Of a DNA stretch of 64,000 bases, positions 1,667-28,473 are shown piece by piece. The notes below the pieces were generated by a model. The model worked only from the letters and a program-made list of their open reading frames with translations, did no database searches and was not told the DNA's origin. Position numbers and translations under genes: made by a program. Where the stretch lies: NCBI RefSeq assembly GCF_007859855.1, contig NZ_SJPK01000001.1, forward strand, positions 614,091 through 678,090, written 5' to 3'. Every line of letters begins with the position of its first letter. The first letter of the stretch is position 1. The stretch comes from Allorhodopirellula solitaria (GTDB lineage Bacteria > Planctomycetota > Planctomycetia > Pirellulales > Pirellulaceae).

Positions 1667-3509
1667 GGGTGCTGCCTTCCTCACCGGCGTCTTGAGAATA
1701 GATCAGTACAGTGTATGGGGGCAGCTCGATACGTCCGCGAGAAGGCAGTCCGTCATAGGGCTGCGATCGCCCCTCAATATCGCCACTGGCCTGCCCCGCA
1801 AAGTCGTTGCTATAGATTCGTCGGTCACTGCTAAATCGCCGACGCCACTGTCCACTCGCTGGCAAGCCAAACTCGTACTGCTCGAAATGCTGATTAGCAA
1901 AATTCGCTATCACGACAACGTCGTCGCCCTGACCACCATCATAGCTGCGTTGGAAAGCGACGACTTTGTCGCGATGATTGACATGGAAAACGTTGATGCG
2001 CTGACCGGTCAGCCCCTTGGTAACTCCATCTCGATTGAGCCGCAGGTCGATTAGCCTCGAAGTGAGTCGAACGATTCCTTCATGCTCGCCCTCTTGATCC
2101 CAATCGAGTTCGTCACCGTCTTGAAACCAACCATCGACCAAGAACTCCTGCCCTTGAAACAGCATGGGAATCCCGGGGGCGGTGAGAACGAGAGCGATAC
2201 CGAGGGTAGAACGCTTTTGAGAGTACCAGTCATCGGGATCATCCGAATCGATCTCGGTGGGGACACGTGCCTTCCCGTTGGCGACCTCATCGTGCGACTC
2301 GGTATAGATCACACGTCGAAACGCGTCGCCATCATACGCGTGATAAAGCGCATCGCGAACCTTGTTCATATCCCGGCCTGCGTCGTCGCTCTGGGTGATC
2401 ACATCACGGATCGGGTGAACGAAGGCAGCATCCCATTGGGTGGAAAATGCTGCTCCGCCTTCGCTCTCAGGCTTGGTGAGGTAGGCGTTGTTCTGAAGAT
2501 CTTCAGCGATCGTGATTGCTGAGGGTTTGTAGGCGTGTACCTCCCGGTTCACCCACTGGGTCAGCCCCCAGCCTTCGGGGATCTCTTGCTGGCCGCTCGC
2601 ATCGACACTGCGAATGTAGAGCGTCATATCATATCGCAAGCCATCGACGTGGAAATCTTCCAGCCACATCATGGCGTTGTCGCGAATATACGACCGAACC
2701 TCACCACGCCCATAATCAGGGCGGGTGTCTCCCCACGGTGTCGTGGAACGATAGTCGTTGTAGAAATAGATGCCACCCTTGCCGTTCTCGCTCCAACCGT
2801 CGAACTGCCAAAGATCGAGATCACTCGGACCGAAGTGATTGTAAACCACGTCAAGAATCACGGCGAATCCAGCCTTGTGGGCCTCCCGCACAAACGTCTT
2901 GAACCCAACTGGGCCCCCATACGCCGTTTCGACCGCATACGGGTGGGCAGGGTTGTAGCCCCATGAATAATCGCCAGCGAACTCGGCAAGCGGCATGATC
3001 TGCAACGCGTTGACGCCGAGACGCTTCAAATAATCGAACTTAGTAATGTAGTCTTCAAAGGTTCCTACCCGGTCGTCCTCGCTCCGACTAAACGTTCCGA
3101 TGTGTGTTTCGTAAATGACGAGCTCGTTCCACGAGGGCATCACGAATTCATCATCCTGCCAATCGAACGCAGGCTGATGGATGATCCCGTTACCGACGGA
3201 ATTGGTCACCTCTCTGACCCGCGGATCAATCCGGCAGAACGTTTTCTCGCCGTTCGAAATCTCATACTTGTATTGATCACCCGGTTTGGCATCTTCAACG
3301 TAGGCATACCAATCACCGCTCGGGCTGGATTCCATCGGACTGGCCTTGCCATCCCAGTCGTTAAAATCGCCCACCACGCTGACCGAGTTCGCGTGCGGTG
3401 CCCACACCCGGAAAGCCACGCCGCGATCAAGCACAATCGGCCCCATCCCAGAGGCTTGCGTCGTGGCTGAAGATGTGTTCGCTGCTTCAAGCGAGTGAGA
3501 AGATGTCAC
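1656..3509 (-). CDS. GH13 alpha-glucan enzyme, branching-enzyme-like, with N-terminal CBM48
   Basis: A 617-residue protein with an N-terminal early-set/CBM48 domain (about 20-105, with VVGDFNDWDG) and a GH13 barrel. Catalytic residues appear in order: nucleophile D294 in DGLRYD, acid/base E336 in IAED, and transition-state stabiliser D407 in ESHDE. The architecture fits 1,4-alpha-glucan branching enzyme and malto-oligosyltrehalose trehalohydrolase; I cannot choose firmly between them. No signal peptide is seen, so it is probably cytoplasmic and acts in glycogen metabolism. A second, longer GlgB is encoded at 13937. The start is GTG 3509; no clear ribosome site precedes it, and an internal ATG at residue 22 is possible. 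Confidence 0.82.
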   Translation of the reverse strand: MTSSHSLEAANTSSATTQASGMGPIVLDRGVAFRVWAPHANSVSVVGDFNDWDGKASPMESSPSGDWYAYVEDAKPGDQYKYEISNGEKTFCRIDPRVREVTNSVGNGIIHQPAFDWQDDEFVMPSWNELVIYETHIGTFSRSEDDRVGTFEDYITKFDYLKRLGVNALQIMPLAEFAGDYSWGYNPAHPYAVETAYGGPVGFKTFVREAHKAGFAVILDVVYNHFGPSDLDLWQFDGWSENGKGGIYFYNDYRSTTPWGDTRPDYGRGEVRSYIRDNAMMWLEDFHVDGLRYDMTLYIRSVDASGQQEIPEGWGLTQWVNREVHAYKPSAITIAEDLQNNAYLTKPESEGGAAFSTQWDAAFVHPIRDVITQSDDAGRDMNKVRDALYHAYDGDAFRRVIYTESHDEVANGKARVPTEIDSDDPDDWYSQKRSTLGIALVLTAPGIPMLFQGQEFLVDGWFQDGDELDWDQEGEHEGIVRLTSRLIDLRLNRDGVTKGLTGQRINVFHVNHRDKVVAFQRSYDGGQGDDVVVIANFANQHFEQYEFGLPASGQWRRRFSSDRRIYSNDFAGQASGDIEGRSQPYDGLPSRGRIELPPYTVLIYSQDAGEEGSTHDQ

Positions 3510-7921: not shown

Positions 7922-9046
7922 CTACAACCGCGTCTTGGATTTTTCGCCCGCGATCTCGCGGACGTAGCGGGGGACGGCGAAGCCGGGTAACCGCGATTCT
8001 AACTGCGCGATCAACTCGAGACCACGTTCCTGCGGAACTTCAAAGTGGGCGGCCCCCGCGACTCGATCGAGTTGATGCAGGTAATAGGGAATCACACGGC
8101 AATCGATCAGTGATCGCGACAACGCCTCCAAGGCCGCGACCGAGTCGTTGATGCCCCGCAGCAGCACGGATTGGTTGAGCACGGGAATGCCGGCGTCGAC
8201 CATCCGCTGTAGCGCCGACGACGTTTCCGCGTCAATCTCTGCCGCGTGATTGCTGTGCACGACCATCCACGCCGACAGCCGCGAGTGGCGCAGTCGCTCG
8301 ACCAAGAAGGAATTCACGCGAGACGGGATGACGATGGGCATCCGGGAATGGATCCGCAGCCGCTTGACATGCTCGATCGCTTCGATCTCGCCGATCAGCG
8401 TCTCGAGAGTTGAATCGGTCATCGTCAGCGGGTCACCGCCGCTGAATATCACTTCGTCGATATCGTCTCGTTGCCGCAGGTAGTCCAGCGAAGGGGCGTA
8501 GGCTTGGCTGCGTGAGCCAGCCTCGTGGTAGGGAAACGCCCGGCGAAAGCAATACCGGCAATGCACACCGCAGGCACCCGTCGTGATGATCAGCGCTCGG
8601 GCAGCGTATTTGTGCAGCACCCCAGGAGCGACATTGGCCTCACGATCACCCACCGGGTCGGCGTCAAATCCGGCCACCTCGACTCCCTCCGCTGAACTCG
8701 GCATGACCTGCAGCAGCAGCGGATCCGAGTCATCCCCGGGCTGCATCCGAGCGGCAAATTCACGGGGGACAAAGACAGGGAAATCATAATCCACCTCTCT
8801 ACCAGACGGGTTCTCTCCGCTGGCCCCATTTTCGGGCCCCGGCGATTCGAGTCCCAGCACGTGTCGCAGTTCGGCGGCCGAGCGGATGGCTCGGCGCATC
8901 GAGTCGAGCCAGCGATCGTCCCCAGCAGGGCCGGGCGGCGGCGAGATTTGGCCAGCCTGCCGGGACGCCGCAAAATCTTTGCTACTCTGGGGTGGGACAA
9001 CCCGACCCTCGCTCGTTAAACTCTGCGCCGTCCGATTCACAATCAC
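7922..9046 (-). CDS. epmB: EF-P beta-lysylation radical SAM enzyme EpmB
   Basis: A 374-residue member of the lysine 2,3-aminomutase family. The radical SAM cluster motif is C159-x3-C163-x2-C166 (CGVHCRYC). FSGGDPL follows, as do IPYYLHQLD and GAAHF. The C-terminus GEKSKTRL matches the PLP-binding lysine region of EpmB (K371). EpmB converts alpha-lysine to beta-lysine for modification of elongation factor P. The divergent gene 33 bases away is efp itself, which supports the name. The start used is GTG 9046; the first 45 residues are low in conservation signals, so a later start is possible. Confidence 0.88.
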   Translation of the reverse strand: MIVNRTAQSLTSEGRVVPPQSSKDFAASRQAGQISPPPGPAGDDRWLDSMRRAIRSAAELRHVLGLESPGPENGASGENPSGREVDYDFPVFVPREFAARMQPGDDSDPLLLQVMPSSAEGVEVAGFDADPVGDREANVAPGVLHKYAARALIITTGACGVHCRYCFRRAFPYHEAGSRSQAYAPSLDYLRQRDDIDEVIFSGGDPLTMTDSTLETLIGEIEAIEHVKRLRIHSRMPIVIPSRVNSFLVERLRHSRLSAWMVVHSNHAAEIDAETSSALQRMVDAGIPVLNQSVLLRGINDSVAALEALSRSLIDCRVIPYYLHQLDRVAGAAHFEVPQERGLELIAQLESRLPGFAVPRYVREIAGEKSKTRL

Positions 9047-9079
9047 TGATTATTTTTCCGTTTGGGAGTGGAGCCGTCT

Positions 9080-9649
9080 GTGGCAAGTTACAACACTAGC
9101 GATTTTCGCAAAGGCCTAAAGGTTCAAATCGATGGCGAACCGTATTTGATGACTGAAATGATGTTCGTCAAACCCGGCAAAGGCAACGCCATGTACAAAT
9201 GCAAGATGAAAAATCTCATTCGTGGCACGACCCTTGACCGTACCTACAAGGGCGGCGACTCGCTCGAATCCGCTGACGTCGAAACTACGACCGTGCAGTT
9301 CCTCTATCGCCAAGCCGAGGACTACGTCTTCATGGATGGGGAGACATTCGAACAGTACGAGGTCGCCTCCGAAGTCGCTGGCGATATCTGGAAGTTCCTC
9401 AAGGACGGCATGGAATGCTCCATGACGCTCTACAACGGCCGCGCGATCATTGTCGAACCGCCCCAGCACGTGCAGCTCGAAGTGATCGAAACCGCACCTG
9501 GAACCAAAGGCGACACCGCCACCAACGTGACCAAGCCAGCCAAAATGGAAACAGGCGCTGAGTTCCTCGTGCCCGGATTTATTAAAGAGGGCAATGTGGT
9601 GAAGATCAGCTCGATCACCGGTGACTACGTCGAACGTGTTAGCAACTAG
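9080..9649 (+). CDS. efp: Translation elongation factor P
   Basis: A 189-residue EF-P with the usual three domains. The modified residue is K34 in KPGKGN, at the same position as in Escherichia coli. GTG 9080 is preferred (M-A-S-Y-N-T-S-D-F-R, like the family N-terminus) with GGAG at 9070-9073; an upstream TTG at 9062 would add six residues not found in the family. EF-P relieves ribosome stalling at polyproline stretches and is activated by beta-lysylation. Divergent epmB fits that. EpmA (PoxA), which attaches the beta-lysine, is not in the window. Confidence 0.95.
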   Translation: MASYNTSDFRKGLKVQIDGEPYLMTEMMFVKPGKGNAMYKCKMKNLIRGTTLDRTYKGGDSLESADVETTTVQFLYRQAEDYVFMDGETFEQYEVASEVAGDIWKFLKDGMECSMTLYNGRAIIVEPPQHVQLEVIETAPGTKGDTATNVTKPAKMETGAEFLVPGFIKEGNVVKISSITGDYVERVSN

Positions 9650-13936: not shown

Positions 13937-16141
13937 ATGAACACGCAGCTCTCCCTCTCGAAAATTCAGTCGCTCGTCGACGGCAGTATCGCCGACCCCA
14001 GCAGTTTGCTTGGTCGCCACCCGGTGGACTATCGTGGTACTCCGGCAACCGCATTTCGTATGTTCCAGCCCGAGGCCCATTCGATCTGCTTGATCGATTC
14101 GGCATCCGGTTTGCGACGCCCTATGCGGCGACTGCACCCCGAGGGTGTGTTTGAAGCTATCCTCGATGAATCTCCTGAGAGCCACTACAAGGTCGAAATG
14201 ATGGATAAAAAAGGCAAGACGACCGAGACCGCTGACCCCTACGCCACGCCGAGCCTGCTAACGGATTTTGACCGCTATCTAATTGGACAAGGTCGTCATC
14301 ACAAAATTTATGAGCGATTGGGCGCTCAACTACGCACTGTCAACGGTGTCGATGGTGTGAACTTCGCCGTCTGGGCACCCAATGCGCGAGCCGTCCAGGT
14401 GGTTGGCGATTTCAATGGCTGGGATGGACGCCAACACGGCGCCCGCCAACTCCCCAACATCGGCATCTGGGAGATCTTCGTTCCGGCAGCCCGCATCGGC
14501 CAGCGGTACAAGTTCCGCATCCATAGCGAGCAAGGCCACTGGATGGACAAATGTGATCCGATGGCGTTCGCTTCCGAACTGCCTCCGCTGACGGCCAACA
14601 TCATCTCGGACATCAACTCCTATTCATGGAGCGATAGCGACTGGATGGACAAACGGACCGAGTTTGATCCCCTGCACGCGCCGATGAACGTTTACGAAGT
14701 TCACCTGGGCAGCTGGCAGAAAGGGCCGGGGCGGACCAACGGGTGGTTGGATTATCGTGACCTCGCCAAGCGTTTGGCCGACTACTGTCACCGCATGAAC
14801 TTCACCCATGTCGAGTTGATGCCGATCAGTGAGCATCCCTACTCGGGGTCGTGGGGCTACCAGAGCGTGGGCTATTATGCTCCCACGAGCCGCCATGGCA
14901 GCCCCGAGGATTTCATGTTCTTCGTCGATCACCTGCACCAAAATGGCATCGGGGTGCTCGTTGATTGGGTCCCCGCGCACTTCCCTAAAGACGATCACGG
15001 GCTGCGACGATTCGATGGATCGCCACTCTACGAGCATGCCGACCCACGCCAGGGCGAGCATCCCGATTGGGGCACGATGATCTTCAACTTTGGGCGGAAC
15101 GAAGTTCGTAACTTCCTGATCGCGAACGCTGTGTTCTGGCTCGATAAATACCACATCGACGGGCTCCGCGTCGATGCCGTCGCCTCGATGCTGTATCTCG
15201 ATTACAGTCGTGAGGAAGGCCAGTGGGTGCCCAACCGCTACGGTGGCCGGGAGAACTTGGAGTCGATCGATTTCTTGCGTGAATTCAACAATGCCGTGCA
15301 CGAAAACTATCCCGGCGTGGTCACCGCCGCCGAAGAATCAACGGCCTGGCCAGGTGTTTCTAAACCGACGAGCGATGGTGGTTTGGGCTTCACCTATAAA
15401 TGGAATATGGGATGGATGAACGACACGCTGCGTTACATGCGTGAGGAACCCATCCATCGCCAATACCACCAGAATGAACTCACGTTCAGCCTGATCTATG
15501 CGTTCACCGAAAACTTCATGTTGCCGCTATCGCACGATGAGGTGGTCCATGGCAAGGGATCTCTGATCAGCCAGATGCCGGGTGACATGTGGCAGAAGTT
15601 TGCCAATCTGCGGCTTCTCTATTCCTACATGTGGACGCATCCCGGCAAGAAACTTTTGTTCATGGGCGGCGAATTGGCGCAGTGGAACGAGTGGAACGAA
15701 GACGATGGCCCCCAATGGTTGCTGCTCGACTTTGCGACCCACCGCGGCGTGCAGCAACTCGTCTCCGACCTCAACCTGCTGGTCAATGAGAACCCGGCGC
15801 TGCATCACTTCGATTTCGGACCCGAGGGCTTCGAATGGGTCGATTGCCAGAATGCCCAAGACAGCGTCCTGGTGTATCTCCGCAAAGGCACCGATAACGA
15901 TCCGCCCCTGCTCGTGTGCAGCAACTTCACTCCCGTCGTCCGCGAGGATTATCCCATCGGCGTACCGCAGGCGGGATTCTGGAAAGAAGTTTTCAACAGC
16001 GACGGCGAAGCCTACGGCGGCAGCAACGTGGGAAACTATCCCGGTTGCCAATCGCGAGGAATCGGCCATCATGATCGGCCCGATAGCATCGCGGTAACAT
16101 TGCCACCTCTGGGAACCACGATCTTTCGGCTCGATCAATAA
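13937..16141 (+). CDS. glgB: 1,4-alpha-glucan branching enzyme GlgB
   Basis: A 734-residue full-length GlgB with two N-terminal early-set/CBM48 domains (about 20-115 and 140-225, the second with VVGDFNGWDG), the GH13 barrel and the C-terminal beta domain. Catalytic residues are D413 (GLRVDAVASMLY), E466 (AAEESTAWP) and D534 (LSHDEVVHGKGSL). It creates alpha-1,6 branches in glycogen in the cytoplasm. It is the canonical branching enzyme of the window; the GH13 gene at 1656 is shorter and more divergent. No glgA, glgC or glgP lies nearby. Confidence 0.95.
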   Translation: MNTQLSLSKIQSLVDGSIADPSSLLGRHPVDYRGTPATAFRMFQPEAHSICLIDSASGLRRPMRRLHPEGVFEAILDESPESHYKVEMMDKKGKTTETADPYATPSLLTDFDRYLIGQGRHHKIYERLGAQLRTVNGVDGVNFAVWAPNARAVQVVGDFNGWDGRQHGARQLPNIGIWEIFVPAARIGQRYKFRIHSEQGHWMDKCDPMAFASELPPLTANIISDINSYSWSDSDWMDKRTEFDPLHAPMNVYEVHLGSWQKGPGRTNGWLDYRDLAKRLADYCHRMNFTHVELMPISEHPYSGSWGYQSVGYYAPTSRHGSPEDFMFFVDHLHQNGIGVLVDWVPAHFPKDDHGLRRFDGSPLYEHADPRQGEHPDWGTMIFNFGRNEVRNFLIANAVFWLDKYHIDGLRVDAVASMLYLDYSREEGQWVPNRYGGRENLESIDFLREFNNAVHENYPGVVTAAEESTAWPGVSKPTSDGGLGFTYKWNMGWMNDTLRYMREEPIHRQYHQNELTFSLIYAFTENFMLPLSHDEVVHGKGSLISQMPGDMWQKFANLRLLYSYMWTHPGKKLLFMGGELAQWNEWNEDDGPQWLLLDFATHRGVQQLVSDLNLLVNENPALHHFDFGPEGFEWVDCQNAQDSVLVYLRKGTDNDPPLLVCSNFTPVVREDYPIGVPQAGFWKEVFNSDGEAYGGSNVGNYPGCQSRGIGHHDRPDSIAVTLPPLGTTIFRLDQ

Positions 16142-17658: not shown

Positions 17659-19989
17659 CTACTCGTACAGTAGGTACTGCGGGCGTGACGCGCGGAACTG
17701 CGATACGCCACTGAGCGATTTCATCCAGGTAGTCATCGCGTCGTCGCCGTCTGTGATGCTGTCATAGACCTGATCGTTGCCGAGCAGCCGGTTCAAACTT
17801 TTGGTCTGCCAGTCGTCTGGGTAGAGCTGATGCAATGCGGTTGCTAGTTCGAGACCGACCCGGACCGCATTGAGCTGATCCAGCTCGGTGACCATGATCT
17901 GAATACCGCCGCACAATTGATCACTGTACTTGCTCGCATCTGGAGTGAACTGAATTGGCACGAACCGCACACCCGGCAGTTCGCGTTCGTTGAGATGCCT
18001 CGCCAGCTCGCGGCCGTCGATCCAGGGGGCGCCGACGGCTTCAAAGGGCGTATCGGTTCCCCGCCCCACCGAGACATTCGTGGTCTCGATCAATCCGATC
18101 CCTGGATAGAGGAACGCCTGCGTCAGATTACGCATGTTCGGAGAAGGGTTGATCCAGGTCAGACCGGTTTCATCCCAGCTATCACTTCGCTGCCAACCCT
18201 GACACTGAATCACTTCGAGATCTAAATCGAGATCGTGCTCGGCGCGGATGAGTTGAGCGATCTCACCAATCGTCATCCCGTGCTGCACCGGTAGGCGTGT
18301 GTAGCCCACAAAGGATTCCTTGCCCTCATCGAGCATCGGGCCCGTGACATTGAGTCCGCCGAGAGGGTTCGGACGGTCGAGCACCACGAAACGCTTCTTC
18401 GCTTCCGCGGCCGCTACCATCGCCTCGCCCATCGTCGAGATATAGGTGTAGAACCGGGTGCCAATGTCTTGAATGTCGAAGACGAGTGTATCGATCTCCG
18501 CAAGCATCTCGGGTGTGGGTCGCCGCGTCTCACCATAGAGGCTGAACACGGGGAGGCCGGTCTGATCATCTTTCGTGTTAGCGATATTGGAATGATCGAG
18601 CCGACCGGCAATCCCGTGCTCCGGACTGAACAATGCCGTCAAAGCAACCTCAGGTGCCGACTGCAGGATGGAGGCCGTACTGGTTCCGTCAGCACTGCGG
18701 CCGGTGTGGTTGGTGATCAACCCCACACGCTGATTCGCGAGTGCCCGAAAGCCGTTCGAAAGCAGCACGTCGATCCCGGGCTGCACGTCGTGCGTCACGC
18801 GGCGCGGCTGCTCGACGAGAGAACTCACCACGACATTGAGGATTTTGCCTGCCAAGTGATTGACACTGCCACGACCGTCGGGGTGCACGCGGTTGCTTAG
18901 AAAGACGAAGAACAGATCGAGTTCCGGATCGATCCACAATACCGTCCCCGTGAACCCACCGTGGCCGAAGGCACTGGAAGAGAGCAGATCACCGCGATTA
19001 CTTGAGTACGCCGTTTGTTTGTCCCAGCCCAGACCGCGGATGCCCGAAGAGACCCGGTAGGCCGCAGTCATCTTGGAAACGGTCGCCGGTGACAATACCC
19101 GGGCTTCTCCATCAGCGGTGTCCGCGCTTCCATTGCCCAACATCATTTGCGCGTAAACGGCAATATCCGTGGCAGTGGAAAACAATCCCGCATGCCCGGC
19201 GACACCGGACAACGCGTGCGCCCGCGGATCGTGCACCTCGCCTCGCATCCAATCCCCATCACGTTTCTGCGTCGGCGCGGCCCGGTGTTTCAAGGACTCC
19301 GGTGGGTTGTATCCTGTTTCGTCCATCCCCAACGGCGCAAACAACTCGTCCTGGGAAAAGACATCGATGCTCTTGCCCGTCACCCGTTCGACTAGCTTGG
19401 CCAGCACAATGAAGTTGACGTCCGAATAACGGAAGCGTTCGCCAATGGGTGAGACGAGCTTCAACTGACAGATCTTTTCCCACGCCACTTCGGGTCCATT
19501 CTGGTAATCCGCCATGGCGTTGTCAGGGATCAACCCGCTCTCATGCAGCAACAGATCCTGGACGGTGATCTCATCTTTGCCGTACGGGGCGAACTCCGGG
19601 AGATGATCGACCACTTTGTCACGCAGCAGCAACTCTCCATTCTCAACCAGCTTCATGATGCTCGTCGCTGTCGCCACAGGCTTGGTCAACGACGCCAGGT
19701 CAAAGACAGTGTCAACGGTCATGGCCTCGGGGGCGTCACCGAGTTGGCGGTTACCGAATGCTTCGAGATACATGACCTCGCCCTGCCGGCCGAAACACAC
19801 CACGCCGCCGGGAAGTCTCCCCTGCGAGATTCCCTCACTCATCAACCCTTCGATCGCCGCCAGCCGCTCGGTCTGCATGCCAACCGGTGCAGCCGTCGAG
19901 GCGGACAAGCCTTGGGATCGCGCCTCATCCAAGGAGATCAACAGGATGGCAAATGCAAATACAGCGGTCCATCTTAAATCAAGCATCAT
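17659..19989 (-). CDS. Fusion of serine beta-lactamase-like hydrolase and NamZ-type DUF1343 domain
   Basis: A 776-residue exported protein with a signal peptide (about 1-25). Residues 40-390 form a class-C beta-lactamase-like serine hydrolase with SLTK (S100, K103), YSD (Y188) and HGGFTG (343-348, in place of the KTG box). Residues 402-776 form a DUF1343 domain with SPEHGI, DIQDIGTRFYTYISTMGEAM and NPLGG. DUF1343 includes exo-beta-N-acetylmuramidase NamZ, which removes MurNAc from peptidoglycan ends. The hydrolase half may cleave amide or ester bonds in the same material. The start overlaps the upstream isochorismatase-type gene by four bases (ATGA). Confidence 0.88.
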   Translation of the reverse strand: MMLDLRWTAVFAFAILLISLDEARSQGLSASTAAPVGMQTERLAAIEGLMSEGISQGRLPGGVVCFGRQGEVMYLEAFGNRQLGDAPEAMTVDTVFDLASLTKPVATATSIMKLVENGELLLRDKVVDHLPEFAPYGKDEITVQDLLLHESGLIPDNAMADYQNGPEVAWEKICQLKLVSPIGERFRYSDVNFIVLAKLVERVTGKSIDVFSQDELFAPLGMDETGYNPPESLKHRAAPTQKRDGDWMRGEVHDPRAHALSGVAGHAGLFSTATDIAVYAQMMLGNGSADTADGEARVLSPATVSKMTAAYRVSSGIRGLGWDKQTAYSSNRGDLLSSSAFGHGGFTGTVLWIDPELDLFFVFLSNRVHPDGRGSVNHLAGKILNVVVSSLVEQPRRVTHDVQPGIDVLLSNGFRALANQRVGLITNHTGRSADGTSTASILQSAPEVALTALFSPEHGIAGRLDHSNIANTKDDQTGLPVFSLYGETRRPTPEMLAEIDTLVFDIQDIGTRFYTYISTMGEAMVAAAEAKKRFVVLDRPNPLGGLNVTGPMLDEGKESFVGYTRLPVQHGMTIGEIAQLIRAEHDLDLDLEVIQCQGWQRSDSWDETGLTWINPSPNMRNLTQAFLYPGIGLIETTNVSVGRGTDTPFEAVGAPWIDGRELARHLNERELPGVRFVPIQFTPDASKYSDQLCGGIQIMVTELDQLNAVRVGLELATALHQLYPDDWQTKSLNRLLGNDQVYDSITDGDDAMTTWMKSLSGVSQFRASRPQYLLYE

Positions 19990-20732
19990 GGGGTCTCAGT
20001 CTCAGGAATTAAACGTTCGACGGTGCCGATTGTATCACCCAGTGTCGTCACGCGTGCGTACCGGTCACGGAGCGTCGCCAGAGACGCGTCATGCAGCTCC
20101 GGTGTCACCGTCGCACAGCAATCCTCCACCACCGTTACCAAGTAACCGAGGTCGCAGGCGTCTCGGACTGTCGTCTCGACACACTCGTTGGTGTACACCC
20201 CGACGATGAACAACGCCTCGATCCCCATGTTGTTGAGCACATAATGCAGGTTCGTCGACGAAAACACGCCGCTGGCGGTCTTGTTGATCACAATTTCATC
20301 TCGCTCCGGATCCGGGGCTACCTGTTCGAGGAAGTCCGCGTCTCGAGATCCCGGAGCCGCCAAAAGATTCAGCCGTTTGTGCCCCTTGCTGCGATCGCGC
20401 CCGTCATGCGTCAAGGCTTGGATCCGCGTGTGGATCACCTCCAGATCATGCGAACGGAAAACGTCTTGCAGTTTCCGTACTCCCGGCAGCACGCGTTTCT
20501 CCAACCGATCGAAGTAGTAGGCCTGCCCCTCTGCCGACACCCCTCCTTGATCCGGCGTCGCAAACACGCCATGACCGGGCGCCGCATCGAGATACTGCAG
20601 ATCAATGCACAGCAGAGCCGCGTTGTGCGAAATCAATAACTCGCGATGCAACGCAATGTCGATCATCGATTGATGATAGACGCTACGCAGCGGGTCGATG
20701 GAATCGGGCGAGGAGGGGTCGGGTTGAATCAT
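19986..20732 (-). CDS. Isochorismatase-family cysteine hydrolase
   Basis: A 248-residue alpha/beta hydrolase of the isochorismatase-like superfamily. The catalytic triad is visible: D44 (LLCIDLQ), K151 (VINKTASGVF) and C184 (YTNECVETTV). The family includes nicotinamidases, N-carbamoylsarcosine amidase, ureidoacrylate amidohydrolase and isochorismatases. The cysteine makes it an amidase-type member. I chose ATG 20732 (MIQPDP); the frame extends to 20810 but the added residues look like leader sequence. It is translationally coupled to the downstream NamZ-fusion gene. Confidence 0.82.
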   Translation of the reverse strand: MIQPDPSSPDSIDPLRSVYHQSMIDIALHRELLISHNAALLCIDLQYLDAAPGHGVFATPDQGGVSAEGQAYYFDRLEKRVLPGVRKLQDVFRSHDLEVIHTRIQALTHDGRDRSKGHKRLNLLAAPGSRDADFLEQVAPDPERDEIVINKTASGVFSSTNLHYVLNNMGIEALFIVGVYTNECVETTVRDACDLGYLVTVVEDCCATVTPELHDASLATLRDRYARVTTLGDTIGTVERLIPETETP

Positions 20733-20999: not shown

Positions 21000-21185
21000 A
21001 TGGCTAAAAAGAAAGACAAGACTAAATCCGAGAAAAAGCTTACCGAGCGAATCAACTTGCGGGTTTCCGAGAAAGAACTCGCATTGCTCGAATCGGCATG
21101 CAGCCAGGATGAACGGTCGCTCAGCAACTGGGCTCGACGAGTCCTCGTGCGGGAAGCACGCCGTCAGCTCTCAGAAGACTTGTGA
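21000..21185 (+). CDS. Ribbon-helix-helix-type small protein
   Basis: A 61-residue protein with a lysine-rich N-terminus (MAKKKDKTKSEKK). It then has the RHH pattern: a short strand RINLRVS, helix EKELALLESACSQ, turn, and helix SLSNWARRVLVREARRQ. RHH proteins bind DNA as dimers, often as repressors or antitoxins. No toxin gene is adjacent, so a solitary regulator is more likely. ATG 21000 is supported by the promoter and GAGG upstream. An in-frame upstream start at 20955 lies across the promoter and was rejected. Confidence 0.7.
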   Translation: MAKKKDKTKSEKKLTERINLRVSEKELALLESACSQDERSLSNWARRVLVREARRQLSEDL

Positions 21186-21210
21186 CACCGCGATGGACAC
21201 GCGATGCATA

Positions 21211-21320
21211 AGCAACGCACGATCAATTTCTGTCGTAGTGGACGAGGCGACGAGTTCAAAGCCGCTGGACTCGTCGCCTCGTCCACTACTAAAACCGACA
21301 CTTATTCATCGTGTGTTGCT
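21211..21320. mobile_element. MITE-like element, copy 1 (complete, about 110 bp)
   Basis: Left end AGCAACGCACGATCAATTTC and right end CATCGTGTGTTGCT are inverted repeats that extend through GTAGTGGACGAGGCGACGAGT and its complement, so the whole element folds into one hairpin. It is flanked by TAAG at 21209-21212 and at 21320-21323, consistent with a 4-base target duplication. It has no coding capacity. Related copies lie at 33448, 45654 and 55330. Confidence 0.75.
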
Positions 21321-21402
21321 AAGTCGAATCGTCAGAGGCGATGTTCTCTCTGACGCAATCCAAACCGCCGGCAGTCGCCGTCGGTATCCTTTTGAAAGAG
21401 AA

Positions 21403-21597
21403 ATGAAAATGGCTGGCAAGAAAAGCAAGAAGGACAAGTCCAAGAAAGGCAAAAACAAGAAAAAGGGCAAGAACACCAAAGACCTGAAGCTCAAGGGTAA
21501 GAAGAAGAAGAAAGGCAAGGGCAAGAAGGGAAAAGATTCCAAAGCGAAAAAGGGTAAAGATAAGAAGGGCAAGGGCAAAAAAGGCAAGAAGAAATAG
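21403..21597 (+). CDS. Extremely lysine-rich small protein
   Basis: A 64-residue protein of which 37 residues are lysine and 11 glycine, arranged in KGKK-type units after MKMAGKKSKK. It has no hydrophobic core and is probably disordered. Such tails bind nucleic acids, like the C-termini of histone H1-like and some ribosomal proteins, but nothing proves that here. GAAAGAG precedes the ATG closely. Its start (MAGKKSKK) resembles that of the RHH gene upstream (MAKKKDKT). Coding is likely but not certain, because A/G-rich repeats can make such frames by chance. Confidence 0.55.
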   Translation: MKMAGKKSKKDKSKKGKNKKKGKNTKDLKLKGKKKKKGKGKKGKDSKAKKGKDKKGKGKKGKKK

Positions 21598-21937: not shown

Positions 21938-22002
21938 GTGAGCGGTAAGGCGCTAGCCGCCGGTGTCAGTGCAATACCGACGGCTAGCGTCTTGCCGCTC
22001 AC
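21938..22002. terminator. Long hairpin between convergent genes, possible bidirectional terminator
   Basis: Two 27-base arms (21938-21964, 21976-22002) match at 24 of 27 positions; the mismatches are G-U compatible in one orientation. The loop is 11 bases. ACTTGTTTGG follows on the plus strand. It lies between the lysine-rich gene (ends 21597, plus) and the amidohydrolase gene (ends 22105, minus), where a shared terminator would be expected. Confidence 0.55.
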
Positions 22003-22104: not shown

Positions 22105-23337
22105 CTACTGATCGGCAATGCTCATCAGGGTATGCAGCATCAGGTTCGCTCCTGCCTCGATATCCGACCAGGCCGTCCATTCAGCGGGCGAGTGACTCTG
22201 TCCGCCCTTGCTCGGGACAAAGATCATGCCGACGGGGACCATCCGGCCCATGATTTGAGCGTCGTGGGCAGCCCCGCTGTGCATGCGATTGGCCTCGAGT
22301 CCGAGTCGTTCGCTCTGCCGAGTGAGTTCCTCGACGAGTTCACCACCGCACTGGACCGGTTGCAGATAGCTTTTCTGTTGGAACTCAAACATCAATCCAC
22401 GGCGACGGGCGATTGCCGAGAGAGCTTTGCGAAACGACTCGGCCAGCTCCCTCAAGACGTCCTCAGAGGTGTCGCGGACATCGAGCGAAAACTCCACTAG
22501 TCCGGGCACGGTGTTGGCCGCCCCCGGCAAGATTTGTGCTTTACCGATCGTCGCCCGGCTGCGAGGGGAACCGTTCTCATCCAGGATGCGGGGCACCTCA
22601 TGGGCGAAATCGGCGAGCCCCATGAACGCATCTTTGCGCATTTCCATCGGGGTCGTCCCAGCATGGTTGGCTTCTCCGCGAAACCATACCGACCACGTGA
22701 ACAGTCCGGTGATTTCATCAACGATCCCGATAGGTTTCTTTAAGTGGTCGAGCACTGGCCCCTGCTCAATATGCAGTTCCAGGTAGCTGGCGATGGATTC
22801 GGGGTCACGCGCCGCTTCGAGAGCAGCGAGCGGCTCGTAGCCGTGTCGATGCATCTCATCGGCTAGCTTGATGCCATCGAGGTCGTCCATCGTTGCGATC
22901 AGTTCGGGATTAATCAAACCGCAGACGGAGTGCGATCCGAACATCCCGCCGAAGCGTCCTTCTTCATCGCTGAAGGCGATCAGTTCGAGGGTCCTCCGCA
23001 GCGAGACGTTCTCTTCGTGGATCCGCCGGAGGCATTCCAGCCCGACGATCACACCGAGCGTCCCGTCCAAAGCGCCTGCGCAGGGAACGGTGTCGATATG
23101 CGAGCCGACGAGCACACGAGGCGAATCGGATGTGCCGGCCCGGATCGCTGAAATATTGGCAGCCCCATCGACCGAGGCCTGCAAGCCCGCTGACTCGATT
23201 CGCTGCGTCAACCAACGCTTGCCTTCCATATCCGCATCGGTGAACGCCATCCGGTAGATACCGCGATCATCGGCATGACGGCCGATCTCCGCCAAGGTGA
23301 GGATGTCGGATTTAATGCGTTCGAGGTTAACGTGCAT
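22105..23337 (-). CDS. M20-family amidohydrolase (N-carbamoyl amino acid hydrolase/allantoate amidohydrolase type)
   Basis: A 410-residue metallopeptidase-like enzyme. Metal-site motifs follow the family order: GSHIDTVPCAGALDGTLGV, SDEEGRFG, and HIEQGPVL. NHAGTTPM marks the dimerisation domain. The subfamily hydrolyses carbamoyl or ureido bonds (N-carbamoyl-L-amino acids, beta-ureidopropionate, allantoate). ATG 23337 lies one base after the asnB stop; the longer frame to 23496 runs into asnB and is not used. As last gene of a symporter/carbamoyltransferase/asparagine-synthase operon, it probably acts on a ureido or N-carbamoyl compound. Confidence 0.85.
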   Translation of the reverse strand: MHVNLERIKSDILTLAEIGRHADDRGIYRMAFTDADMEGKRWLTQRIESAGLQASVDGAANISAIRAGTSDSPRVLVGSHIDTVPCAGALDGTLGVIVGLECLRRIHEENVSLRRTLELIAFSDEEGRFGGMFGSHSVCGLINPELIATMDDLDGIKLADEMHRHGYEPLAALEAARDPESIASYLELHIEQGPVLDHLKKPIGIVDEITGLFTWSVWFRGEANHAGTTPMEMRKDAFMGLADFAHEVPRILDENGSPRSRATIGKAQILPGAANTVPGLVEFSLDVRDTSEDVLRELAESFRKALSAIARRRGLMFEFQQKSYLQPVQCGGELVEELTRQSERLGLEANRMHSGAAHDAQIMGRMVPVGMIFVPSKGGQSHSPAEWTAWSDIEAGANLMLHTLMSIADQ

Positions 23338-23338
23338 C

Positions 23339-25261
23339 TCAGTCCACCGCTGGGAGAGGTTGGCCTTCGACGTATTGGCCGTGCAGCATGTGTAGCTGCA
23401 GCATGTGATTGATAAGAATGTCGTTGCGACGAGCAATCGTGCCGTCGGTTTCACGCCACGCGTCGTGGATGAAACGCTCGACCGCACTGTGGTCAAAGAA
23501 CCCGACTTCGGCGACGCGTTCCGGGGTCAACCAGTGATCAATCATCTCTTGAACGGCAGCCCGTTTAACCGGGTCGGTATGGGCAGGCGGCGCCATGAAC
23601 GCGAACTTCTTGCGTTCATACAACTCGCGTGGCAGCACGTTGACCATCGCCTCCCGCAGCACCCATTTTTCCACTCCGTCGCGAATCCGAACTTCTGGTG
23701 GGATCGTGGTGGCATACTCTGCGAGATGATGGTCCAAAAACGCCGGTCGGGCCTCCATGGAATTGGCCATGTCCATGCGGTCACCGCCCCAAGTCAGGAT
23801 CTGGCCCTCGAGCATCGTTTTGCTCCACGTGTACTGCGAGATGTCAAGCCGATGGCGTCCTCGCACTGCCGCTGGATCGATAGCGTCAGCGATCTCGGCG
23901 ATGGGATCGTACTCATTGAGTAAATCCTTCAAATCGCTCGACAGCAGTGGCGAACAACGTTGGAGAACGAGCATCCAGGGCTGCAACCATGACGGGGTGA
24001 ATCCGCAGAGGTCTTGCCAGGCCGCATGTTTCTGGTCCTCTTCGGCGAGGATCGCGCCAGCGAACACACCCGCCTCTTCTCCCTCGCGGCCGAGCCAATC
24101 GCGTTTAAAGAAGGGGTACCCGCCGAACAATTCGTCACTTCCCTCGCCCGTCACCACGGCTTTGTAGTTGCACGCCCGCACCCGGCGGCTCATGTGCCAC
24201 TTCGCCACCGCGAGCGTGTTGTAGAACGTTCGCTCGGCATGCCATGTGGCCCGCTCGAAGGCTGGACCGTAGAGTTCCTTCTCAGTCAGACGCAGCAGTT
24301 CTTGTTCCGCACCGGTACGCTCTGCCATCCGTTTGGCAATGTTGGATTCGTCGTACTCGTCGCTATCAAACGCGATCGTAAACGCCTTGACCGACGACTG
24401 CATCAACGTCGTTGCCAAGCCGAGGATCGAACAGCTGTCGATGCCGCCGGAGAGATAACAGCCCACGGGGACGTCTGCCTCCAACCGCGTCGCCACAGCA
24501 TCGATCAACCGGTCCTGAACACCCTGCACGTACTCGGCGGGATCCGGATTGGGATCATGGGATTCGGGAAACGTGAAATCCCACCAACGCTGCGTGTCAA
24601 TCTCGAGCCGGCCGTCTCGCAATTGAGCGACCAGCATGTGCCCCGGCTGGAGCGCGTCGACACCTTCAAACGCCGTCGATCCCGGCACCATCACTTGCAT
24701 CATCTGATGCACAGCCGCCTTGGGACAAAGCTTGGCGGGGACATCGGGATGCTGCAGAATCGATTTGACCTCGGAACCCCACACGAGCCCGTTGTCACCG
24801 GCGGCATAGTAGAGCGGTTTGATTCCGAACCGATCCCGGATCAGGATCAAGCGTTGTTCGCGATGATCGTAGAGCACGATCGCGAACTCACCACGCAGGT
24901 GCTCGACCATTGCGAGACCGTATTTAAGGTACAGCGGCAAAGCGATCGAACTATCACTCTTGCCGTTGCACTCGAGGCTCTCGCACGCCAATTGGGTGCG
25001 GATGCGTTTGTAGTTGTAGAGTTCGCCGTTGACCGTGACGGCATAGTCACCGTCGTCCGTGGAGATGGGTTGGTGGCCGCAATCCAGTCCAATGATCGAC
25101 AACCGCGTGTGCCCCAGGGCCAGCCCCTGATCGATAAACAATCGACTGCCACGTTCATCAGGACCGCGATGATCGAGCACATCGAGCATCCGGTCGAGTG
25201 TCGAGCGGAGGTCGCGTTCGCTATTGCGTTGAGGGTTCCAGAACCCGGTGATGCCGCACAT
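23339..25261 (-). CDS. asnB: Asparagine synthase (glutamine-hydrolysing)
   Basis: A 640-residue AsnB-family protein. M-C-G-I-T-G-F puts the glutaminase cysteine at position 2 after methionine removal, so ATG 25261 is the start. The N-terminal Ntn glutaminase domain covers about 1-210. The synthetase domain has the PP-loop LSGGIDSCSILGL and GEGSDELFGGYP. It makes asparagine from aspartate, ATP and glutamine. Related proteins amidate other carboxylates in biosynthetic clusters, and the unusual operon leaves that open. A 430-codon frame on the opposite strand is a shadow. Confidence 0.9.
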   Translation of the reverse strand: MCGITGFWNPQRNSERDLRSTLDRMLDVLDHRGPDERGSRLFIDQGLALGHTRLSIIGLDCGHQPISTDDGDYAVTVNGELYNYKRIRTQLACESLECNGKSDSSIALPLYLKYGLAMVEHLRGEFAIVLYDHREQRLILIRDRFGIKPLYYAAGDNGLVWGSEVKSILQHPDVPAKLCPKAAVHQMMQVMVPGSTAFEGVDALQPGHMLVAQLRDGRLEIDTQRWWDFTFPESHDPNPDPAEYVQGVQDRLIDAVATRLEADVPVGCYLSGGIDSCSILGLATTLMQSSVKAFTIAFDSDEYDESNIAKRMAERTGAEQELLRLTEKELYGPAFERATWHAERTFYNTLAVAKWHMSRRVRACNYKAVVTGEGSDELFGGYPFFKRDWLGREGEEAGVFAGAILAEEDQKHAAWQDLCGFTPSWLQPWMLVLQRCSPLLSSDLKDLLNEYDPIAEIADAIDPAAVRGRHRLDISQYTWSKTMLEGQILTWGGDRMDMANSMEARPAFLDHHLAEYATTIPPEVRIRDGVEKWVLREAMVNVLPRELYERKKFAFMAPPAHTDPVKRAAVQEMIDHWLTPERVAEVGFFDHSAVERFIHDAWRETDGTIARRNDILINHMLQLHMLHGQYVEGQPLPAVD

Positions 25262-25297: not shown

Positions 25298-26362
25298 CTA
25301 GACTGATTTGATGCCGCTGATGCGGTCGAGGCGATCGAGGATCGATGCGAGGATCGCTTGGCGAACAAACACGGCACCGGCGGCTTGAGCGAAGTAGAGG
25401 TTGTGATCCGTCTCGTCCAATTCAACCGACAGCTCTTGATTGCGTGCCAACGGATGCAGGATCACGGCCCCCGGTTTCAGATCGCTATCGCAGTCCAATT
25501 GATATCTCGCATCGAGATTGCGGTAGCTGTCTCCGAGGAATGCGATGGAGTTCATGTACACAACGTCCAGCTGTGGCAAGACGCTCTGCACGTCATTGGT
25601 AATGTCGATCTCAATCGGCGATTCTTCGATCGGTTCGGTCAAATCCAACCCGACTGGATCGGCGAGTTCAGAAATGATCGTGATCTTCTTGACCGATCCG
25701 CTGAACATCAACGCCAGACGCAGGAAACTTTTGACCGTCCGCATCGAGCCTGGCGTCCCGATGATGCCGATGTGGATTTGCTTTTCAGCAGGACAGATCA
25801 CCCGCGATAGGTCCGGACGCCACTTCAGCAATGCGTACCAATCGATCAATGCTTGCGTGGGATGGTGCCCCGAGCCATTGCCGGCATTGATGAGGGGCCG
25901 ATGCAGATTCTTGCTGATCTGTTCCAAGGAATCCGTGTCGGGATGTCGCATGATCACGACGTCACCGTAGGTGTTGAACATTTCACCGATGTCGGCAATC
26001 GACTCACCTTTGGCGATGCCGGTGACCTGCCCATCGGGAACGGACAGCACCTTCCCGTCGAGCCGCAGGACAGCGCTCTCGAAGGACAACCGGGTCCGCG
26101 TACTGGCTTCGAAAAAAGCGGTAATCGCAATCTTCCCATCGAGTGGCTTATCCATCTCGACGTTTCTTGATTCCAGGAGCGCCGCGAGCTGAGCGATCGC
26201 TGTCACGGTCCGGCGATCGAGTTGCCTGGGATTGAGCAGAGACGTGCCCGCCAACGCACTGAGCGCTTCGCGATCCACCGCTCCGTCAGTAACCGCCAAC
26301 AGAGGCTCAGGCCACAATCGCGGCCCTTTGGAATTGGCCGCCATCTCAGTCGGACTCACCAT
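25298..26362 (-). CDS. Aspartate-carbamoyltransferase-like protein with altered substrate pocket
   Basis: A 354-residue transcarbamylase. The carbamoyl-phosphate site is intact: STRTR (87-91), K118 (AKGE), R139-H140 (MRHP), HPTQ (167-170). R208 matches R167 of the E. coli enzyme. The loop that binds the side-chain carboxylate of aspartate is changed: E. coli YMTRVQ reads YMNSIA here, so R229 and Q231 become S272 and A274, and P268 of HPLPR becomes A306. The fold is clear; aspartate as substrate is doubtful. Start ATG 26362 follows GAGG and overlaps the upstream small gene's stop. It is the fourth gene of the symporter operon. Confidence 0.8.
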   Translation of the reverse strand: MVSPTEMAANSKGPRLWPEPLLAVTDGAVDREALSALAGTSLLNPRQLDRRTVTAIAQLAALLESRNVEMDKPLDGKIAITAFFEASTRTRLSFESAVLRLDGKVLSVPDGQVTGIAKGESIADIGEMFNTYGDVVIMRHPDTDSLEQISKNLHRPLINAGNGSGHHPTQALIDWYALLKWRPDLSRVICPAEKQIHIGIIGTPGSMRTVKSFLRLALMFSGSVKKITIISELADPVGLDLTEPIEESPIEIDITNDVQSVLPQLDVVYMNSIAFLGDSYRNLDARYQLDCDSDLKPGAVILHPLARNQELSVELDETDHNLYFAQAAGAVFVRQAILASILDRLDRISGIKSV

Positions 26363-26475
26363 ATCTGTTTGCCTCGAGTGTCGAGTACCAGGAAAACGAT
26401 CAGCAGAACAATCCCCACACACGTGAGGATCAATCCACCAACTACGAGAAATTGAAGCAGCCACAAAGGAAACAT
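26356..26475 (-). CDS. 39-residue single-span membrane protein after the symporter
   Basis: It starts four bases after the symporter stop, with ATG at 26475, and encodes one membrane helix (FLVVGGLILTCVGIVLLIVF) followed by DTRGKQIW. Its stop overlaps the ATG of the carbamoyltransferase gene. Size and position match the small accessory proteins found next to some sodium/solute symporters, which are thought to stabilise or modulate the transporter. The coding call rests on tight packing between two certain genes and a clean hydrophobic profile. Confidence 0.65.
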   Translation of the reverse strand: MFPLWLLQFLVVGGLILTCVGIVLLIVFLVLDTRGKQIW

Positions 26476-26479
26476 GATA

Positions 26480-27973
26480 CTAGGCTCCCGCCGCGGTAGT
26501 GGGTTCGATGTGACGGACATCGTCGCTCGGTTGAGGCGCCGGTTGCGACAACAACTCAAAATCGAAATCGTCCGGCTGCCACCAAACCAACAGCGCGAAC
26601 ACGACCCCGGACACCGCTGCTCCGACCAGCGACGCCACCATCCAACCGATCGCGTAGTATGCCAGCAATCCAACGAGACTGCCGCTAATCATCGCCGCTG
26701 CTGCCGCAATGCCACCGGGACGTCGATAGTAGAGACCGCCGACGATGGGCCAAATGCAACTGCCCACCAGCGGACCGGCGAAAAACAGCACGGTGGCAAG
26801 GTCCGAAACATTGGGCAGCGCCACCGCCCACGCCAAAGCGCCCAGGGCGACGATACTCAGGCTGGACCAGCGTCGCTTTTGCTTCTGCGTCGCACCGCCC
26901 GGGACCAACGGTCCGGCAATATCATTGACGATGAGATCCGAGGTCGCCGCCAGCAGCGAATCGATACTCGAAGCGAGTGAACAGAAAATAACAATGAACA
27001 CCAATAGGGCGCCAACATCCCCGAGCAGCGTCGCGGCCACCAACGGCCCGACCGTGTCCGGCTGGCTGATTCCGATTCCCAACGCAGGGGCCGCCAACCC
27101 TAAAAAGCCAGCCACGATTGGGATCGGCAACCAGAGCAAGCCCCCGAGCACGTAGGCTTTTGGCCCCACGCCTTCGCGCATCGCGAAAGCACGGCTCCAC
27201 CATACGTTGCTATGGAAAATCTCACCAAAACCAAACAGCATGTTGTTGAAAATCGCCATCAACGCCGCCGGGAAGAAAATCGAAAGCAACATCGGACGGT
27301 CAGCTCGCAACTTCTCATGCACGTCTGCGATCTCGACCTGATTGAGAACGGCAACAGAGACCACCACGAGCCCGATCATGATGATCAAACTCTGGATGAA
27401 GTCCGTGCCGATGACGGCATACATCCCGCCGAAGAGCGTGTAGGCAACGCAGACCAAGAGGACCACGGTCATCCCGACCTCATAGGGAATCCCCGCGAGC
27501 ACCTCGAGCAACTTGCCACCGGCCATCGACATCGAGATCAACCACGTGATCGCATAGAACAATGAGATCAACAAAAAAGGCCCCGTCGCGACCACGCCAT
27601 AGCGACGCCGCACAAACTCCACGGCGGTGTAGCCTTCAGGCATCAACTGGCGAATCCGGCCGCTCATGGGCGCGAACGCGAAGAGTCCGAAACTCGCGGT
27701 GCTGTAGGCCAAAGCCCCCCAGACACCGAGTTGCAGAGCAAACTGCGGCGCGAGCATCGTGGTGTTGGACGTGATCCATGTCGCAACCGCTGTCGCGGTC
27801 CCCAACGCCAAGCCAACATTGCGGCCCGCCACCGCAAATCCTTCATAGGAATTCGCTCGCCTGCCCCACCAAACCCCTAACGCGACCCACAACACGCTGA
27901 AAATAGCCAACAGCACATACCCCGCCATTGGCGAGAGTATCGGAGCGGCACCGATCATCCACCCGTCTCCCAT
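26480..27973 (-). CDS. Sodium/solute symporter (SSS family)
   Basis: A protein of about 497 residues with roughly 13 membrane segments. Family cues are GRNVGLALGTATAVATWITSNT in the second segment, GGMYAVIGTDFIQ, and the Na2-site-like SLASSIDSLLAATSDLIVND. It resembles the urea/proline/pantothenate branch, although the substrate cannot be read off. ATG 27973 is used, five bases after the stop of the FN3-like gene; the open frame extends to 28111 through that gene and is not used. The following genes suggest uptake of a nitrogen-rich ureido or amino compound. Confidence 0.85.
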   Translation of the reverse strand: MGDGWMIGAAPILSPMAGYVLLAIFSVLWVALGVWWGRRANSYEGFAVAGRNVGLALGTATAVATWITSNTTMLAPQFALQLGVWGALAYSTASFGLFAFAPMSGRIRQLMPEGYTAVEFVRRRYGVVATGPFLLISLFYAITWLISMSMAGGKLLEVLAGIPYEVGMTVVLLVCVAYTLFGGMYAVIGTDFIQSLIIMIGLVVVSVAVLNQVEIADVHEKLRADRPMLLSIFFPAALMAIFNNMLFGFGEIFHSNVWWSRAFAMREGVGPKAYVLGGLLWLPIPIVAGFLGLAAPALGIGISQPDTVGPLVAATLLGDVGALLVFIVIFCSLASSIDSLLAATSDLIVNDIAGPLVPGGATQKQKRRWSSLSIVALGALAWAVALPNVSDLATVLFFAGPLVGSCIWPIVGGLYYRRPGGIAAAAAMISGSLVGLLAYYAIGWMVASLVGAAVSGVVFALLVWWQPDDFDFELLSQPAPQPSDDVRHIEPTTAAGA

Positions 27974-27978
27974 TGCAT

Positions 27979-28473
27979 TCACCGCAGGACGTCTCCTGCG
28001 AACCGTTTCGGAGAGCGTCCACGGACCGCGCCGTGGACAATCACTCCCACCAAAATCAGAAAGACTACCAGCCCGATCACGAACAGCGACATCGCTTGCG
28101 TCAGGGACCAATGCTCGACTCGCACGACAGCCGGCCCGCTACCCCGGGCGAGAATGCTGCCCTCGCTATCGACCGCCCAAACGTCAAAACGGTACTCACC
28201 GTCGGGCAACCCAGAAATGAACGCCATTGGCAAATGGCCGCGGTAGTACGTCGTCCCCTCACCATCTTTAACGAGGTAACTCGATTCAAACTCCGCCTCG
28301 TCGAGAATATCATTCCACTCCAGCGTCACGTAGCCCGCTCGGACATCGTCGAACTCGACTTGCTTAAACGCCATCATGCCCGACGGAGGTGCATCCCGCG
28401 ACGTACCTTGGGCGACCACAGACCCCGCCTGAAAGAACAGCAACAACGTTAGACCGAGATGGAGCGGTCGCAT
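27979..28473 (-). CDS. Secreted FN3-like domain protein with C-terminal membrane anchor
   Basis: A 164-residue protein with a signal peptide (1-22), a beta-sandwich domain with FN3-type spacing (YVTLEWND...YLVKDGEG...ISGLPDGEYRFDVWAVD) at about 35-110, and one C-terminal membrane helix (about 128-150) with a basic tail. The domain would face the periplasm. As first gene of the operon it may bind substrate for the symporter or organise it in the envelope; that is inference from position. Confidence 0.65.
   Translation of the reverse strand: MRPLHLGLTLLLFFQAGSVVAQGTSRDAPPSGMMAFKQVEFDDVRAGYVTLEWNDILDEAEFESSYLVKDGEGTTYYRGHLPMAFISGLPDGEYRFDVWAVDSEGSILARGSGPAVVRVEHWSLTQAMSLFVIGLVVFLILVGVIVHGAVRGRSPKRFAGDVLR

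Follow-up and report, generated by a model that had tools for sequence, protein, structure and literature searches.

A carbamoyltransferase encoded in the window (the whole stretch of 64,000 nucleotides analysed here) belongs to the aspartate carbamoyltransferase (ATCase) branch, has lost the residues with which ATCase holds the side chain of aspartate, and is encoded within a conserved gene cluster (Table 1). We tentatively favour, at somewhat less than even confidence, a reading in which the enzyme uses carbamoyl phosphate but not aspartate and the cluster makes, moves and recycles an N-carbamoyl amino acid amide. This scheme would give every enzyme of the cluster a role, and beyond the alignment each of its steps is one that we infer.

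Table 1 The carbamoyltransferase gene cluster of the window
Feature	Coordinates	Strand	Length and basis
Isochorismatase-family cysteine amidohydrolase	19986..20732	(-)	248 aa; Pfam PF00857
M20 hydantoinase/carbamoylase-family amidohydrolase	22105..23337	(-)	410 aa; TIGR01879, NF006771
AsnB-type glutamine-dependent amidotransferase	23339..25261	(-)	640 aa; TIGR01536; the genome has other AsnB-type paralogues
Carbamoyltransferase (pseudo-ATCase, orthologous group of R. baltica RB13301)	25298..26362	(-)	354 aa; Pfam, alignment
Single-helix membrane protein, between symporter and carbamoyltransferase	26356..26475	(-)	39 aa; overlaps carbamoyltransferase start
SSF-family symporter	26480..27973	(-)	497 aa; nearest solved structure that of plant urea symporter DUR3
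Membrane-anchored protein	27979..28473	(-)	164 aa; N-terminal hydrophobic stretch, beta-rich middle (Fn3-like by eye only), one C-terminal membrane helix

Loss of the aspartate side-chain contacts

The carbamoyltransferase has the STRT and HPxQ carbamoyl-phosphate motifs and the ATCase/OTCase fold, with the Pfam domains OTCace_N and OTCace both above their cut-offs. ATCase is its nearest NCBI model, at scores below both ATCase cut-offs (170.3 vs 263 and 169.8 vs 236.95 bits); the OTCase model is farther (86.4 vs a cut-off of 306), and the knotted YgeW enzymes, as represented by two NCBIfam models, also score below cut-off (25.3 vs 500 and 25.2 vs 453 bits).

Alignment with PyrB of E. coli MG1655 (residue numbers excluding the Met) shows that the carbamoyl-phosphate residues are retained, S52-T55 as S87-T90, R105 as R139, H134 as H167 and Q137 as Q170, together with K84 as K118 and R167 as R208. 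In contrast, R229, Q231 and P268 are replaced by S272, A274 and A306, the RxQxER motif is gone, and the 240s loop has 12 residues (Y269-Y280), three fewer than the 15 of E. coli (Y226-Y240). S80 of the E. coli chain pairs with G115, where the loop is one residue shorter. A sequence-only reading of this DNA had claimed that the carbamoyl-phosphate residues and R167 are retained and had named the same three replacements, and the alignment confirms both. It had also named R229 and Q231 as aspartate contacts, which agrees with the available text of a review in which R229 and Q231 anchor the β-carboxylate of aspartate and R167 and K84, the latter from the neighbouring chain, contact the α-carboxylate (PMC4581275). 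The pointer to an α-amino acid substrate that these kept α-carboxylate contacts give, and the earlier publication of the group, are additions to the sequence-only reading.

These changes are shared by the relatives of the enzyme. All 15 aligned family members, down to 56% identity, share K118, R208, S272, A274 and A306, and in each of them SIAFLG replaces the ATCase motif of the 240s loop. RxQ, by comparison, is kept in each of the 19 ATCase rows of the PyrB alignment (one further row is a fragment). Of 27 ATCase-like frames found on IMG/VR contigs, 24, several of them near-copies, have RxQx[ED], and the other three are fragments of 109-133 aa. Judged from these alignments, the residue loss is family-wide and goes beyond chance or a single decayed gene. 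The same genome encodes an ArgF above the OTCase cut-offs and a separate, canonical PyrB above the NCBI ATCase cut-offs (360.5 vs 263 bits), whose gene adjoins that of a dihydroorotase; no pyrimidine genes adjoin the carbamoyltransferase gene of the window. That the whole family lacks RxQ, and that the genome encodes PyrB separately, speaks against aspartate as substrate. The proposal of the sequence-only reading that the enzyme accepts another amine is therefore probably right, with indirect support from the loss of R229 and Q231 in all 15 relatives, from the canonical PyrB, for which that reading had suggested a search, and from a distinct set of co-occurring genes.

Phylogeny and predicted structure

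In a tree of 36 rows, all family members used group together (100/100) within the ATCase side, on a long stem and apart from YgeW and four OTCases. The tree, which includes the enzyme groups that the sequence-only reading had named for comparison, leads us to reject kinship with YgeW or OTCase, and we read the Ser/Ala common to YgeW and the family as convergence. Because the branches are long, the nearest ATCase sister is unsure. The tree and the PyrB alignment used 12 of the 36 available family rows, leaving out locus L039 and near relatives; the fragment X_L059 was removed before tree building, L080 was omitted from alignment A5 (stop in frame), and letters X were stripped from rows in the PyrB alignment and in the family scan of cluster flanks.

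A first structure model, based solely on 15 family rows, was of low quality (pLDDT 69.2), and a second, in which 14 family rows were combined with 16 ATCase-like sequences from IMG/VR contigs, reached a pLDDT of 91.9. Its best fold match is ATCase 1ml4 (Z 37.8, 1.7 Å over 296 residues), and ATCases account for 50 of the 50 fold matches listed for the second model, a likeness that is partly built in because the model alignment held 16 ATCase-like rows. Confidence in the model is lowest for the changed loop, residues 271-280, with a mean pLDDT of 57. Structure prediction, which the sequence-only reading had proposed as a check, agrees with an ATCase fold; the make-up of the pocket was judged by alignment alone.

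A conserved gene cluster

On the minus strand, the AsnB gene lies downstream of the carbamoyltransferase gene, the M20 gene begins one base past the AsnB stop, and the isochorismatase-family gene lies 1.4 kb beyond the M20 gene. Upstream of the carbamoyltransferase are the overlapping gene for the 39-residue protein, the SSF symporter and the 164-residue protein, for which neither Pfam nor NCBIfam gave a match. One scan of named genomes yielded 25 loci, comprising 18 Pirellulaceae-type records or bins, 4 Phycisphaerales bins, 2 Polyangia bins and one other planctomycete bin. The symporter adjoins the carbamoyltransferase in all 25, the 164-residue protein and AsnB are each present in 24, the M20 gene was seen in 19 loci and that for the isochorismatase-family enzyme in 18; the 39-residue protein, too short for good detection, was found in 17 at E 1e-4. 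Five of the six loci without M20 end inside or just past the cluster, and the sixth (L039) has 6 kb beyond AsnB without M20. At loci L038 and L039, one amidase and one M20 are absent nearby; the L039 genome has an amidase elsewhere, and genome G450 has none. Since the last two genes sit together on the other strand in the three distant loci L033, L036 and L037, we regard the cluster as two modules. A family scan of the flanks in distant loci found no further neighbour conserved between distant lineages.

A profile search of 199 Pirellulaceae genomes found the carbamoyltransferase in 42 at E below 1e-60. It is also present in 2 of 392 genomes drawn across the phylum and in 1 of 235 genomes from the phylum of a Polyangiaceae bin, namely that bin itself. 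Plasmid and IMG/VR searches returned ordinary ATCases only. Within the 199 Pirellulaceae genomes, the cluster AsnB occurs in exactly the 42 that have the carbamoyltransferase, and the isochorismatase-family amidase occurs in those 42 plus one (G841, 85% complete, 1210 contigs); a genome of the same genus as the window genome (G001) lacks all three. The amidase lies at most 8 kb from the carbamoyltransferase in 34 of the 42, on the same contig but distant in 3, and on another contig in 5, some of these last placements being due to contig breaks. It is kept though distant at 658 kb in G007 (L007; carbamoyltransferase at C1:1232700, amidase at C1:574640), 3.4 Mb in G805 and 21 kb in G842. A Fisher test of carbamoyltransferase against amidase (42/0/1/156) gives 1.8e-42, a value to be read with the caution that related genomes are not independent draws; shared descent partly explains the co-occurrence.

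Between the M20 and isochorismatase-family genes, the window holds two tight inverted repeats, at 21235-21289 and 21938-22002 (24-nt arms 96% and 27-nt arms 89% complementary); in most relatives the two genes are close together, unlike this repeat-bearing stretch. The same gap contains a small, very Lys-rich frame on the plus strand at 21109-21597 (MAGKKSKKDKSKKGKNKKKG...), whose Lys-rich part, 21415-21597, has several short internal repeats. In the R. baltica BR-MGV record (L018:9059-10974), the reading frame of the cluster AsnB is interrupted, so that two frames cover it, by a sequencing error or a real break.

Partner enzymes and transporter

The cluster AsnB scores above the asparagine synthase model TIGR01536 (404.5 vs 267.1 bits) and below the N-acetylglutaminylglutamine amidotransferase model TIGR03104 (276.8 vs 570.1), and could therefore simply make asparagine; it also falls below the cut-off of the XrtA-type amidotransferase model. 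Among solved structures, the hydroxyamidotransferase 7ylz is nearest to it (E 9.9e-71), ahead of E. coli AsnB (3.4e-55). C2, R53, N78, G79, E80 and D103, which we take to be the glutaminase residues, are invariant in the 10 rows of the AsnB alignment. Because these residues are intact, the enzyme should deliver ammonia for an amide rather than close a lactam. Elsewhere the genome carries two further strong AsnB-type genes and a single weak match; the AsnB at G000:C1:898645 is 30% identical to that of the cluster.

The cluster M20 enzyme scores above the TIGR01879 and NF006771 cut-offs, and its best solved relative is the N-carbamoyl-L-amino acid hydrolase 3n5f (2.2e-75), ahead of the allantoate amidohydrolase 1z2l (1.7e-58). 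By its NCBIfam score (529.1 vs 399), the enzyme falls into the subfamily that bears the name 'allantoate amidohydrolase'; against the model for the N-carbamyl-glutamate hydrolase ErtE, it scores below cut-off (360.8 vs 520). H80, D91, E126, H189, Q192, H225, R288 and H382 are invariant and N275 nearly so, R288 being presumably the Arg that binds the substrate carboxylate. In the isochorismatase-family amidase, D44, K151 and C184 are invariant, and its nearest solved relatives, by a distant likeness, include biuret hydrolase, RutB (ureidoacrylate) and N-carbamoylsarcosine amidases. The symporter matches DUR3 at E 8e-27, with a choline transporter next at 1.5e-8.

Proposed function and alternatives

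Since R167 and K84 hold the α-carboxylate, and R229 and Q231 the side-chain carboxylate, the substrate of an enzyme that keeps the first pair and lacks the second would be an α-amino acid with an uncharged side chain larger than that of aspartate, for example glutamine. The carbamoyltransferase would carbamoylate the α-amino group of such an amino acid, and the cluster AsnB would convert the free α-carboxylate of the N-carbamoyl amino acid to an amide in a glutamine-dependent reaction. The resulting N-carbamoyl amino acid amide would be neutral and rich in nitrogen, and the DUR3-like symporter might move this solute. When the solute is no longer needed, the isochorismatase-family enzyme may strip the amide, after which the M20 carbamoylase may strip the carbamoyl group, releasing the amino acid, ammonia and CO2.

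A narrower version of this proposal names the product as the osmolyte Nα-carbamoyl-L-glutamine 1-amide, with the pseudo-ATCase as glutamine N-carbamoyltransferase, AsnB as N-carbamoylglutamine 1-amidotransferase, the isochorismatase-family enzyme as its amidase and M20 as N-carbamoylglutamine hydrolase, the cluster thus serving biosynthesis, transport and recycling. We consider this version conceivable but doubtful. The available texts describe the compound as an osmolyte of Ectothiorhodospira marismortui (PMC1224877, citing Galinski and Oren 1991; PMC7824335), and it is the same compound that the order of the cluster enzymes would yield from glutamine; it is known as a compound, and our searches found no genes for making it. 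Several points count against the proposal in either version. AsnB passes the asparagine synthase model, the M20 enzyme has the NCBIfam name and the ErtE score given above, and the basic residue 281 (see below) could stand in for R229. The solutes of R. baltica also count against it: the main ones given in the available text are glutamate, sucrose, trehalose and mannosylglucosylglycerate (MGG), with no N-carbamoyl amino acid amide (PMC3694870). The available text of an R. baltica salt-shock transcriptome study contains no mention of the cluster genes (PMC2754498), and in that of a 2026 study of observed or predicted planctomycete solutes the word carbamoyl was not found (PMC13342039).

The cluster might instead serve a catabolic route like those of the YgeW, ureidoglycine carbamoyltransferase (UGTCase) and putrescine carbamoyltransferase clusters: a ureido compound taken up through the DUR3-like symporter would be cleaved by the carbamoyltransferase with phosphate and then degraded further by the hydrolases. 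The symporter type and the presence of two hydrolases from families that open ureido or amide bonds suit such a route, and a related pseudo-ATCase, the UGTCase of Rubrobacter, phosphorolyses allantoate according to the available text of PMC4016543. However, an ATP- and glutamine-using AsnB has no evident place in this breakdown and is yet the strictest partner of the carbamoyltransferase (42 of 42). Moreover, carbamate kinase is above cut-off in none of 9 genomes with the cluster, one weaker match (G451) lying below cut-off, and this absence from 9 of 9 fits a biosynthetic use. We regard the catabolic route as unlikely.

About equally improbable, in our estimate, is that AsnB is a plain asparagine synthetase supplying the amine acceptor, in a cluster for the making or use of N-carbamoyl-asparagine or a different specialised N-carbamoyl compound. 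AsnB does pass the asparagine synthase model, and Ser and Ala at the R229 and Q231 positions would suit a carboxamide side chain, but since the genome already carries two strong AsnB-type genes outside the cluster, a dedicated supplier is unneeded, and the pocket also lacks P268.

An aspartate carbamoyltransferase with altered kinetics is very unlikely. Residue 281, beside the shortened loop, is basic throughout the 15 relatives (11 Arg, 4 Lys) and could in principle replace R229 in the pocket, as judged from its position in the alignment. With the loop poorly modelled, another cation in the pocket, which the sequence-only reading had named as a finding that would refute its proposal, is conceivable. 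The closest profile and the fold are likewise those of ATCase. On the other side, RxQ is gone from the whole family and present in all ATCases examined, the genome has its separate canonical PyrB, and the gene set is unrelated to pyrimidines.

We reject, as the least credible reading of all, an identity as UGTCase in purine breakdown with M20 as allantoate amidohydrolase: the Rubrobacter xylanophilus enzyme is also ATCase-derived, lacks RxQ and keeps R167 (PMC4581275, available text), it falls within the same pseudo-ATCase set in the available text of PMC4016543, and the NCBIfam name of the M20 subfamily agrees, but it has H(T/S)LP where 15 of 15 members of the window family have HPLA (PMC4581275), and its purine-catabolic context with a carbamate kinase neighbour differs from a cluster without purine genes. 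Of 8 genomes with the cluster, a single one has an allantoinase above cut-off, and that of the window genome is below it, on which ground allantoin use was rejected as well. The few allantoinases and the lack of carbamate kinase together argue against purine use and against an ATP-yielding breakdown.

Relation to the marine pseudo-ATCases

Barba et al. 2013 (PMC4016543) defined pseudo-ATCases by the missing RxQ and included a marine subgroup, with R. baltica RB13301 / Q7UHC6, Nitrosococcus oceani, Synechococcus WH 8102 and Kangiella koreensis, whose function is left unassigned in the available text. The window carbamoyltransferase has in common with this subgroup HPLA and SIA (the published set has HPLA with AIA, AIS or SIA), STRT and HPTQ, as well as the Na+ symporter and a nearby HyuC-type hydrolase, and it is a new member of that subgroup. 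The neighbours given there are a Na+ symporter, a 'putative asparaginase' and HyuC; the window cluster has an asparagine-synthase-type enzyme in place of the asparaginase, a word that may be a slip, and an isochorismatase-family gene, of which the available text makes no mention. In that article, Table 1 numbers the HPLA/SIA set 1 and the legend of Figure 5 numbers the R. baltica set 3, a mismatch that we checked against the R. baltica sequence. A search of the open literature, with most subscription papers and all preprints outside its reach, found no later functional work on pseudo-ATCase, UGTCase, RB13301 or Q7UHC6.

New here is the conserved set formed, on sequence grounds, by a DUR3-like symporter, a second AsnB with a predicted intact glutaminase site, a putative M20 N-carbamoylase and an isochorismatase-family amidase. 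Since 2013, a third ATCase-type activity in marine bacteria has gone under the name of 'pseudo-ATCase' only, and databases label such genes aspartate carbamoyltransferase. The full gene set, its all-or-none distribution and the kept and lost carboxylate contacts reduce the candidate substrates to a short list. Were the product carbamoylglutamine amide, an osmolyte that has been known since 1991 (PMC1224877, available text) would for the first time have genes assigned to it, and marine bacteria from Planctomycetes to Nitrosococcus and Synechococcus, as in the published list, would share a cryptic nitrogen-rich solute.

Other genes of the window

Elsewhere in the window, an EpmB-type EF-P lysylation enzyme (7922-9649) adjoins elongation factor P in a divergent arrangement. 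Two glycosidases of the branching-enzyme/trehalohydrolase type lie at 1656-3509 and 13937-16141; the first is above no model's cut-off, and the second alone passes the GlgB cut-offs.
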